Shown one piece after another: positions 8,439-47,067 of a DNA stretch of 64,000 bases. Position 1 is the stretch's first letter; the number at the start of each line of letters is the position of its first letter. Position numbers and translations under genes: made by a program. Source of the stretch: Streptomyces changanensis (lineage in GTDB: Bacteria > Actinomycetota > Actinomycetes > Streptomycetales > Streptomycetaceae); NCBI RefSeq assembly GCF_024600715.1, contig NZ_CP102332.1:3410001-3474000 (forward strand). The letters are read 5' to 3'. The notes under the pieces were generated by a model. It was given only the letters and a program-made list of their open reading frames with translations. It did no database searches and was not told where the DNA came from.

Positions 8439-8514
8439 CCACCGATCATCGCAAGAACGGCAGGGGCCCCCTGTTCAGCGTGGCCGGAAGGGCGCTAGCG
8501 TGGTGGCACCTTTG

Positions 8515-8650
8515 CACACGCGGGAGCTCGGAGCACCGGGCTGAGAGGGCGCTGACCTCCGTCCACGCGATGTTTCACGTGAAACCTCGCCGACGGAAGC
8601 CGCTGCGCCGACCGCCGAACCTGTTACCGGGTAATGCCGGCGTAGGGAGT
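8515..8650 (+). ncRNA. TPP (THI-box) riboswitch of thiC
   Basis: All core elements of the thiamine pyrophosphate aptamer are visible in order: the CGGGAG strand of P2 (8521), GGGCTGAGAG (8539-8548), its partner ACCTCCG (8555-8561), CCGAACCTGTTACCGGGTAA (8614-8633), TGCCGGCGTAGGGAGT (8635-8650), and then the start codon 8 nt later. It should turn thiC expression off when TPP is abundant. The short distance from the last aptamer element to the ATG suggests control of translation initiation. Unusually, the variable arm (8559-8596) is a nested hairpin whose tip is an exact parS palindrome. Confidence 0.93.
8572..8585. promoter_or_regulatory. parS site (ParB binding) inside the thiC riboswitch
   Basis: Exact GTTTCACGTGAAAC, the Streptomyces parS consensus. 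Flanking bases extend it into a hairpin in RNA: CCGTC (8559-8563) pairs with GACGG (8592-8596) and GCGA (8567-8570) with TCGC (8587-8590). The arms therefore nest around the palindrome. Confidence 0.9.
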
Positions 8651-8652
8651 AG

Positions 8653-10440
<1,788 letters not shown>

Positions 10441-19011: not shown

Positions 19012-22000
19012 ATGTTTCACGTGAAACCGATCGATCCGCGTCTGCTCCGGTACGCCGGAGCCACCCGTCTCTTCCTCGCGACGGTGGTCCTCCTCGGGCT
19101 GGCCGGGGCGGCGCTCGTGGTCGCCCAGGCGATGCTCATCGCCGAGATCGTCGTCGGGGCGTTCCAGCAGGGGTTGGACGTCCGTGACCTCACCCTGCCG
19201 CTGACGTTGCTCGCGGCGGTCGCCGCCGGCCGCGCCCTCGTGGCGTGGTCGACGGAACTGGCCGCCCACCGGGCCAGTGCCGCCGTCAAGTCCGAGTTGC
19301 GGGACCGGCTGCTGGAACGGGCGGCGGCCCTCGGCCCCGGCTGGCTGAGCGGTCAGCGGACCGGGTCGCTCGTGGCGCTGGCCACACGCGGCGTGGACGC
19401 GCTGGACGACTACTTCGCCCGTTACCTGCCGCAGCTCGGCCTGGCCGTGGTCGTCCCCGTCGCCGTCCTCGCGCGCATCGTGACCGAGGACTGGGTGTCG
19501 GCGGCCATCATCGTGGTGACCCTGCCGCTGATCCCGCTCTTCATGGTCCTCATCGGCTGGGCCACCCAGGCCCGCATGGACCGGCAGTGGCGGCTGTTGT
19601 CACGGCTGTCGGGCCACTTCCTCGACGTGGTGGCCGGGCTCCCGACCCTGAAGGTATTCGGCCGGGCGAAGGCCCAGGCCGAATCCATCCGGACGATCAC
19701 CTCGCAGTACCGGCAGGCGACGCTCCGCACCCTGCGGATCGCCTTCCTGTCCTCCTTCGCGCTGGAGTTGCTCGCCACGCTCTCGGTGGCCCTGGTCGCC
19801 GTCGGGATCGGCATGCGCCTGGTCCACGGCACGCTCGACCTGTACACCGGCCTGGTCATCCTCATCCTGACGCCGGAGGCATACCTCCCGCTGCGCCAGG
19901 TCGGTACGCAGTACCACGCGGCGGCGGAGGGCCTGTCGGCCGCCGAGGAGGTCTTCGCGGTCCTGGAGACACCCGTGCGGGAGGGCGGTACGGCCGTCCT
20001 GCCCGCAGGACCGGTCCGCATCGCGCTCGACGCGGTGACCGTACGCCACGAGGGGCGGGCGAAACCCTCGCTGGACCGCGCCTCGCTCGTCGTCGGCCCC
20101 GGGGAGACGGTGGCCCTGGTCGGACCGAGCGGGGTCGGCAAGTCGACGCTGCTGGACGTGGTGCTGGGCTTCACCGCACCGGAGTCGGGGAGCGTGCGGA
20201 TCGGTGGCGTCGACCTCGCCGACCTGGACCCCGAGCGGTGGCGCGAACGCGTGGCCTGGGTGCCCCAGCGCCCCTACCTCTTCGCCGGGACCCTCGCGGA
20301 CAACGTCCGCCTGGCCAGGCCGGACGCGGACGACGACGCCGTACGGGCCGCGCTGCGCGAGGCCGGCGCGGACTTCGTCGGTGAACTGCCGGACGGCGTC
20401 GGCACGGTACTCGGCGAGGACGGCGCCGGTCTGTCGGCCGGGCAGCGGCAGCGACTCGCCCTCGCCCGGGCGTTCCTGGCCGACCGGCCGGTGGTGCTGC
20501 TCGACGAGCCGACCGCCGCCCTGGACGGTGGCACGGAAGAGGCCGTGGTGCGGGCGGTACGCCGCCTCACAGCGGGCCGGACGGTCCTCCTGGTCGTGCA
20601 CCGGCCCGCCCTCCTCGCCGTCGCCGACCGCGTGGTCGCGCTGCGGTCCGGCACGCCGGAGGACCGACCCGCGGCGGCGGGTCCGGCCGTACCGGCGGCG
20701 GGTCCGGCCGTACCGGCGGCGGGTCCGGCCGCGGCGGATGCGGATCAGGCCGTGCTGGAGACCCGCGTGCCCGGTTCCGGCGCGCGCCCCGGTGGCGGGG
20801 CCGTGCCGGGATCCGGCGGCCCGTCGGCCGGCGGCGTGCGGGACGTCGGGGCGGACATGGTCGACGACGCGTTCGGCGTCGTGGGCGGCCTGTTCGGGGG
20901 GCAGCCGGCTCCCCGTCCCGAACCGGCCACCACCCCCACCGCCCGCACCACTCCCGCCGGCCCGCAGGACGGCAGGAGGGTGCCGGCGCGGATCCGGGCG
21001 ATGGCGGGGGAACTGCGGGGCAGGCTCGCCTTGGCGCTGCTCCTCGGCAGCCTCGCCCTCGGGTCGGCCGTCGGCCTCATGGCGGTCTCCGGCTGGCTCA
21101 TCTCCCGGGCCTCCGAACAGCCGCCCATCCTCCACCTGATGGTCGCCGTCACGGCGACGCGCGCCTTCGGCACCGGTCGGGCCGTCTTCCGCTACGCCGA
21201 GCGGCTGGTCTCGCACGACGCCGTGCTGCGCATGCTCGCCGACCTCCGCGTGGCCGCCTACCGGCGCCTGGAGCGGATCGCACCCGCCGGTCTGCGCCGG
21301 ACCGGGCGCGGCGACCTGCTCTCGCGGCTCGTCTCCGACGTCGACGCCCTCCAGGACTACTGGCTGCGCTGGCTGCTGCCCGCCGGTACGGCCGTCCTGG
21401 TGGGGGCCGGCGCGGTCGGGTTCACGGCGTGGCTGCTGCCCGGGGCGGGGGCGGTGCTTGCCGTGGGCCTCGTCGTCGCGGGCGTCGCCGCCCCGGCGCT
21501 GGGCGGTGCCGTCGCCCGCCGCGCCGAGCGGCGGCTCGCGCCGGCACGCGGTCTGCTGGCCACCCGGGTCGTCGACCTGCTGCGCGGCTGCGCCGAGCTG
21601 ACCGTGGCGGGCGCGGTGCGCGGGCGCGTCGAGCGCACGCGCGAGGCCGACGGGACGCTCACCCGGATCGCCGCCCGGCAGTCCGCCGCGACGGCGCTCG
21701 GCGGTGGGCTCATCGCACTGACGGCGGGGCTGACCGTGGCGGCCGCCGCGCTCGTCGGCGTCCAGGCCGTCCGCGACGGTCGCCTCGACGGGGTGGCGCT
21801 CGCCGTCGTCGTCCTCCTCCCGCTCGCCGCGTTCGAGGCGGTGACGGGCATGCCGTCGGCCGTGCAGTACCGGCAGCGCGTACGGCGCAGCGCCGAGCGG
21901 GTCTTCGAGGTGCTCGACGCGCCGCTGCCCGTCGCGGAGCCGGAGTCCCCCGCCCCGCCGCCCGCGAGCCCTTTCCCGCTGGAGCTGAACGGGATCGCGG

Positions 22001-46530: not shown

Positions 46531-46977
46531 ATGAGCATCTGGTGGTCCCTCCATTTGCGGCGCGAGGCTGCGAGCGTCCCGCTCGCCCGTCGCCTCCTCC
46601 TCGGCGCCATGGAGACCGCGGGCGTCGACCCGGACACCTCCTACGACCTGTCTCTCGCCCTCGGGGAAGCCTGTGCGAACGCCGTGGAGCATGCCGGCGA
46701 CGGCTCCGCGGAGTTCCGGGTCACCGCGTACCTCGACGGGGAGAAGTGCTGCATCGAGGTCTCCGACTCGGGCCCCGGTTTCCCGGCAGGCCCGCTGCGC
46801 GCGATGCCCCCGGGCCCGGCACCGGTCGACGCCGAGGGAGGGCGGGGGCTGCGCCTCATCGAGGAGCTCGCCGACCACGTCCACTTCGGCAACAGGGCCG
46901 GGCGGGGCGGTGCCGTCGTCTCCTTCGACAAGATCGTGAAGTGGCGCGCGGACGCGCCCCTCGCCCTGACCACCTGA
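46531..46977 (+). CDS. Anti-sigma-factor-type ATP-binding protein (RsbW-like)
   Basis: 148-residue HATPase_c domain with N-box GEACANAVEHA, G1 SDSGPGF and G2 GGRGLRLI, all intact. Such stand-alone kinases sequester sigma factors or phosphorylate anti-sigma antagonists. Streptomyces has dozens; no sigma factor or STAS partner is adjacent, so the partner is unknown. A second one is at 54193-54795 and a SpoIIE-like protein at 48851. The ATG at 46531 follows GGGAGGCTTCAGC. Confidence 0.9.
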   Translation: MSIWWSLHLRREAASVPLARRLLLGAMETAGVDPDTSYDLSLALGEACANAVEHAGDGSAEFRVTAYLDGEKCCIEVSDSGPGFPAGPLRAMPPGPAPVDAEGGRGLRLIEELADHVHFGNRAGRGGAVVSFDKIVKWRADAPLALTT

Positions 46978-46988
46978 CGGCGGGAGCC

Positions 46989-47022
46989 CGCGGCCGCTGT
47001 TTCACGTGAAACAGCGGCCGCG
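46989..47022. promoter_or_regulatory. parS site within a perfect 34-bp palindrome
   Basis: The core GTTTCACGTGAAAC is at 46999-47012. The palindrome extends perfectly 10 bp on either side (arm CGCGGCCGCT). It lies 11 bp after the RsbW-like stop, so it may also act as a terminator hairpin. Confidence 0.9.
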
Positions 47023-47053: not shown

Positions 47054-47067
47054 GTTTCACGTGAAAC
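47054..47067. promoter_or_regulatory. parS site (second of a pair)
   Basis: Exact GTTTCACGTGAAAC, 55 bp from the site at 46999, in the same convergent gap. Confidence 0.9.

Follow-up and report, generated by a model that had tools for sequence, protein, structure and literature searches.

The leader of thiC in Streptomyces can hold a parS palindrome, a predicted site for the segregation protein ParB, within the P3a arm of its TPP riboswitch, and with a probability of about 0.7 we regard this palindrome as a ParB site that is nested within an insertion the riboswitch tolerates and is kept jointly as a DNA site and an RNA stem. The location of the site, its retention, a gap in its mismatch numbers and the covariation around it are read from the sequences; that ParB binds at the thiC leader and that the aptamer works are what we infer. 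According to this reading, the P3a arm would be an insertion point tolerated by the aptamer, where a DNA site of this region could sit without harm, and many species would keep there one parS of the oriC-proximal cluster. As DNA, it would serve the segregation complex as a loading site for ParB, and as RNA the same bases would fold into the P3a stem, letting the aptamer form. Because the same bases would serve in both roles, selection would act on both: the 14-mer would stray no more than one base from parS, and the bases around it, together with a second degenerate palindrome in long arms, would change in compensating pairs. A nested, doubly constrained site, for which crosstalk with thiC would not be required, is the most likely account. 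An earlier note on this DNA had proposed such a dual element; comparison of species now indicates that parS sequence and RNA pairing constrain the same bases, although the exact form is rare.

The window, the whole 64-kb stretch of DNA analysed here, was searched for GTTTCACGTGAAAC, which we take to be the parS consensus, and the 14-mer in the thiC leader is an exact match. In the passages of PMC4852455, parS is printed as GTTTCACCTGAAAC, which differs by one letter and is probably a misprint. The earlier note had placed an exact parS palindrome in a variable arm of the aptamer just upstream of thiC, and this placement is confirmed: the site lies between CTGAGA and the ACCTG...CCGG...CCGG core, and thiC follows (Table 1). 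The core strands CTGAGA, ACCTG, CCGG..CCGG and GTAGGGA stand in this order upstream of thiC, based on the sequence and the Rfam alignment. The match to RF00059 is below the curated cut-off, no TPP riboswitch was matched in the window at that cut-off, and the P1 closing stem contains non-standard pairs in the Rfam alignment and fits the model poorly. Among 16 related thiC leaders scanned at E 0.001, RF00059 matched 14 and left L117 and L124 unmatched. Since these 14 relatives, including short-arm leaders (26 and 36 nt, 53.9 and 53.7 bits), were all below the cut-off, a low score is characteristic of these leaders, and scores tend to drop further as the arm lengthens.

Table 1. Features of the thiC leader and the other parS copies in the window (window positions)
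Feature	Position	Strand	Basis
thiC TPP riboswitch (THI element)	8510..8665	+	RF00059, 44.9 bits, E 1.2e-7, cut-off 54.3
CTGAGA core strand, 5' of P3a arm	8541..8546	+	sequence and Rfam alignment
P3a arm, optional variable stem holding parS	8547..8610	+	fold -30.2 kcal/mol, z -3.96, 0/200 shuffles as good
Upper P3a hairpin, parS at tip	8559..8596	+	fold -17.3 kcal/mol, z -4.06, 1/200 shuffles as good
parS, exact palindrome GTTTCACGTGAAAC, predicted ParB site	8572..8585	.	sequence match
AGGGAG, probable ribosome-binding site in 3' conserved THI strand	8644..8649	+	inferred from sequence
thiC, phosphomethylpyrimidine synthase	8659..10440	+	ORF; TIGR00190 and NF006763 above cut-off
Another exact parS of the cluster	19014..19027	.	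sequence match
Another exact parS of the cluster	46999..47012	.	sequence match
Another exact parS of the cluster	47054..47067	.	sequence match

Both outer pairings previously described, CCGTC/GACGG (8559-8563/8592-8596) and GCGA/TCGC (8567-8570/8587-8590), are present. The long hairpin with parS at its apex is retained in so far as this segment folds as one hairpin, but the outer pairing is not continuous with parS, because a U/C mismatch (8571/8586) directly flanks the site. The segment 8380-8760 showed neither a sigma-70-like promoter nor an intrinsic terminator. The AGGGAG near the end of the THI element, 9 nt before the ATG, suggests translational control of thiC. A further reading start, ATGTTTCAC, shares bases with parS; in this genome a frame of 30 codons (8570-8662) begins there and stops on the thiC start (ATGA). 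A conserved upstream peptide from ATGTTTCAC was rejected as a candidate: the ATG is absent in 14 of 83 carriers and the end points differ, and the common parS variants, judged by eye, alter amino acids of this frame (V to M or G, K to E).

By its sequence and position, the thiC-leader site belongs to the parS cluster of this genome and is a predicted ParB site. A search allowing up to two mismatches found four parS copies in the window, all exact, whereas 100 shuffles gave 0.06 on average. The window occupies 3.41-3.47 Mb of a 6.9 Mb genome, which contains 15 exact and two one-mismatch copies in all, each of them within 3.297-3.475 Mb, and the exact copies span 174 kb; a ParB domain gene (PF17762, 125 bits) lies amid the cluster at 3.363 Mb, 56 kb from thiC. 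The parS sites of the Streptomyces ParABS system show the same exact 14-mer in a tight cluster. In S. venezuelae, ParB was located at 16-17 parS sites by ChIP-seq, in passages of PMC4852455 and PMC12511625 that make no mention of thiC, and a mean of 22.8 predicted parS per chromosome was given for 20 closed genomes (passages of PMC8743542). The thiC site differs from these in lying within a structured leader RNA, in having one mismatch in most carriers, and in having surroundings that seem to be under RNA pairing constraint. Two of the other parS copies in the window have settings of their own. The copy at 46999-47012 is the tip of a 34-bp perfect palindrome with ten pairs beyond the 14-mer; it lies 22 bp past the end of the ORF 46531-46977, before a convergent ORF, and resembles a terminator stem; the copy at 19012-19027 overlaps the start of the cydCD ORF, which opens with ATGTTTCACGTGAAACC (MFHVKP).

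ThiC is present in 294 of 295 Streptomyces genomes (150 places among the matches listed), and the thiC arm was readable in 245 of the 295, leaving 50 unread. parS with 0-1 mismatch was found in 118 of the 245 readable arms, and an unrelated arm in the remaining 127. The earlier note had proposed testing whether parS is kept in this arm beyond chance, and it is, in that only 1 of 40,600 shuffled arms came within one mismatch of parS, but the exact palindrome occurs in only 17 of the 118 carriers and the other 101 have an imperfect site. The carrier forms are 60 GTTTCACGTGGAAC, 30 GTTTCACATGAAAC, 17 exact, 9 GTTTCACGGGAAAC and 2 GTTCCACGTGAAAC. Free variation of the arm without parS, which the earlier note had named as evidence to the contrary, is seen in part, in the 127 species with another arm; because these arms lack parS, neither function depends on it. 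Of the carriers, 80 were read with a thiC frame downstream and 38 by eye from pattern-match rows; of the non-carriers, 53 were read with a thiC frame downstream and 74 from pattern-match rows rescored for mismatches. Arms read by eye were assigned to thiC from their sequence.

The pattern searches differ in what they capture. A short-arm pattern with exact parS, which long arms escape, matched at least 13 of the 295 Streptomyces genomes. A looser parS-arm pattern matched 172 of the 295, and it also takes parS elsewhere behind a chance CTGAGA: among 107 genomes listed, 93 were of the thiC type and 14 were not. A less pattern-biased set comprised 60 of 61 thiC leaders that had failed another short-arm pattern, whose matches include non-carriers, and were fetched regardless of parS; 55 of them contain parS at exactly one mismatch, and five have short arms without parS (at least seven mismatches). 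Named carriers include S. scabiei 87.22, S. noursei, S. antibioticus and S. violaceoruber, and a scan of named records gave at least 119 matching stretches, with 79 of 80 loci from Streptomyces by title and the remaining one from Actinobacteria bacterium OK074. When 200 genomes of the family were searched with the short-arm pattern, there were at least seven matches, all seven in Streptomyces, and no parS arm was detected in the 137 other family genomes by this pattern, which misses long arms. Of 51 genomes from 16 further genera of the family, 20 had readable arms, none with parS, and the six matches to a looser pattern in the 51 are, by eye, not THI-arm-like at their start. The short-arm pattern matched at least three of 296 genomes drawn from the phylum, all of them Streptomyces.

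The distance of the arms from parS is divided into two classes. Among 136 arms with a thiC frame downstream, 15 are at zero, 68 at one and 53 at five or more mismatches. This set was drawn from 139 genomes with loci, of which G106, G196 and G224 were dropped; G382, G432 and G450 lie outside the 295 genomes, and some loci were drawn by parS patterns. A further 74 non-carrier arms are at 5-8 mismatches, and no arm at 2-4 mismatches was found among the 245 readable Streptomyces arms; the 50 unread genomes are the only place left for an arm at 2-4 mismatches that is longer than the short-arm pattern allows. These results bear on the possibility that a parS-like palindrome appeared by chance in an arm free to vary and then spread through inheritance, with no selection. 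P3a is indeed optional, being present in 552 and absent in 355 of the 907 sequences of a TPP riboswitch survey (passages of PMC2258182), and close relatives share arms. Such a chance origin is nevertheless highly improbable, given the single match among the shuffled arms and given that the thiC tree records 16 changes among six states, yet no arm is seen at 2-4 mismatches.

Long arms allow the 14-mer to be compared with its own pairing partner. In 39 arms of 112 nt from the less pattern-biased set, the first palindrome is one mismatch from parS in 39/39, and its partner is 2-5 mismatches away. On the thiC tree, 14 changes fall in the first palindrome (4 of 14 columns) against 29 in the partner (8 of 14 columns). 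The 14 bases before parS show only eight changes in these arms, so little changes along the entire 5' strand, and what sets the 14-mer apart is its one-mismatch limit rather than its rate of change. With named arms added, which were selected for the first copy, the first copy is at 0-1 mismatch in 73/73 arms and the second at 1-6.

The imperfect forms also recur outside the arm, at distances from thiC worked out by hand from the listed coordinates. GTTTCACATGAAAC gave 15 matches outside the thiC arm in 30 chosen genomes, 13 of which share the contig with thiC and lie within 120 kb of it, and GTTTCACGGGAAAC gave 18 in 20 chosen genomes, 17 of these on the same contig as thiC and within 60 kb. 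The same distances recur in different species, with 11 copies of GTTTCACATGAAAC at 46-50 kb and 13 copies of GTTTCACGGGAAAC at 31-36 kb, and this suggests set positions near thiC at which certain imperfect parS sites are retained. The thiC copy is nonetheless unusually often imperfect for a parS, since 52 of 57 non-thiC parS among the looser-pattern matches listed are exact (by eye).

As RNA, the arms have two architectures: short arms form a local hairpin that has parS at its tip, and long arms contain two palindromes that pair with each other. parS forms one strand of the longer hairpin, not a local tip, in 111 of 150 distinct carrier arms, part of which came from pattern searches. Of 73 distinct 112-nt arms, 32 came from a pattern search requiring a parS-like 14-mer; parS folds with the far strand in 72 and locally in one. 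In the long hairpin of these 73 arms, 52 double-changed cells were counted against 24.0 in shuffles (sd 5.5, 0/500 as high), and in 25 distinct 79-nt arms 20 against 5.6 (sd 1.8, 0/500 as high); the shuffles keep kinship and related sequences inflate the contrast, so that these counts support the stems and do not prove them. Stems slid out of register reached at most 8 and 7 double-changed cells. Two local hairpins in the long arms were rejected, with no double-changed cell against 7.0 in shuffles. In the inner helix, three pairs change on both sides at once, in 11, 19 and 18 of the 73 long arms; two of these pairs (columns 40-70 and 42-68) lie within the 14-mer. The pairs that often fail are columns 40-70 (24/73 arms) and 43-67 (11/73). 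In short arms, two pairs just outside parS swap (A-U to G-C in 8/25; U-A to C-G or A-U in 5/25), and the pairs inside the 14-mer are fixed except for one U-A/U-G position.

Flank pairing could reflect a general palindromic extension of parS, an explanation that 46 other distinct contexts of exact parS do not support: 40 of them extend by 0-1 pair, and five by 8-16 pairs. Of 29 contexts flagged as thiC, 13 extend by 0-1 pair, that of the window included, and 16 by 2-5 pairs. The orientation of the commonest variant is uneven, with GTTTCACGTGGAAC outnumbering its reverse complement GTTCCACGTGAAAC by 60 to 2 in the genus sample; this bias, based on few independent changes, fits a role of RNA pairing (U-G vs C-A), and is suggestive only.

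The pairing results could also be taken to mean that the arm matters as RNA only, i.e. that it descends from or resembles parS, that ParB does not bind there in most species, and that the 14-mer is kept as a stem or contact. The imperfect site in 101/118 carriers would agree with this, as would the covarying stems of the 112-nt and 79-nt arms, a 5' strand before parS that is at least as conserved as the site (8 vs 14 changes), and one variant base of the long arms that has a matching partner (G-C, columns 40-70, 11 arms). We consider it unlikely all the same: the partner in the same stem has drifted to 2-5 mismatches from parS while this copy stays at one in 39/39, short-arm pairs in the 14-mer vary only between U-A and U-G at one place while two outside swap, and two of the variants recur elsewhere near thiC.

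The history of the arm was followed on a tree of thiC coding DNA (136 rows, a quick method, one gene tree), in which many forks are weak and 39 of 133 are open. On this tree, the presence of parS needs at least four changes, and the 16 changes mentioned above concern five parS forms plus none. A single origin with 83 carriers as one clade was rejected (AU p 0.002), and therefore repeated gain or loss of the arm, or its transfer by recombination, has taken place. The window genome is a lone carrier beside the non-carrier G266. Shared flanks (CCGTCC..GCG) suggest that the arms may descend from one arm.

ParB loaded at the leader might also hinder or tune thiC transcription and so link the state of segregation to thiamine synthesis. 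Such regulatory coupling has a possible model in Pseudomonas aeruginosa, in which ParB represses promoters adjoining parS3 and parS4, sites near a promoter as here; no riboswitch is mentioned in the passages of PMC5521831 that describe them. ParB of S. venezuelae spreads up to 2.5-3 kb from parS (passages of PMC12511625), which would cover the thiC promoter. Set against this are the absence of the site from 127 of 245 readable species and the P. aeruginosa genes by the intragenic parS1 and parS2, which are not so controlled (passages of PMC5521831), and coupling of this kind is quite improbable. A fuller version would be a dual-code element in which ParB recognizes a 14-bp word as DNA and the riboswitch uses it as P3a RNA; ParB loading would then tune thiC transcription or aptamer folding, and the state of segregation would feed into thiamine synthesis. 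This version is rather unlikely.

For the nested site, the closest known systems are the TPP riboswitches with an optional P3a (RF00059), which have the same CTGAGA and P4/P5 core strands; P3a here differs in also carrying the predicted DNA site of a protein. To our knowledge, no P3a has a second function. No account of parS inside the thiC riboswitch was found in the open-access literature, covered mostly as titles and abstract openings, and the thiC site may already stand in published lists of predicted parS. If the nested reading is true, a centromere site lies within a metabolite-sensing RNA and evolves under two codes simultaneously, which suggests that variable riboswitch insertions may serve other functions. 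Leaders that are otherwise alike but, depending on the species, have an exact, a one-mismatch or no parS form a natural test set for the sequence tolerance of ParB, and the same set addresses whether a ParB complex interferes with transcription and with the folding of nascent RNA. Apart from this, two named genomes show a match to the Streptomyces sRNA Scr3920 (RF02828) about 6 kb upstream of their thiC riboswitch (L263:1358-1483 and L229:734-897), the second below its cut-off (80.2 vs 88).
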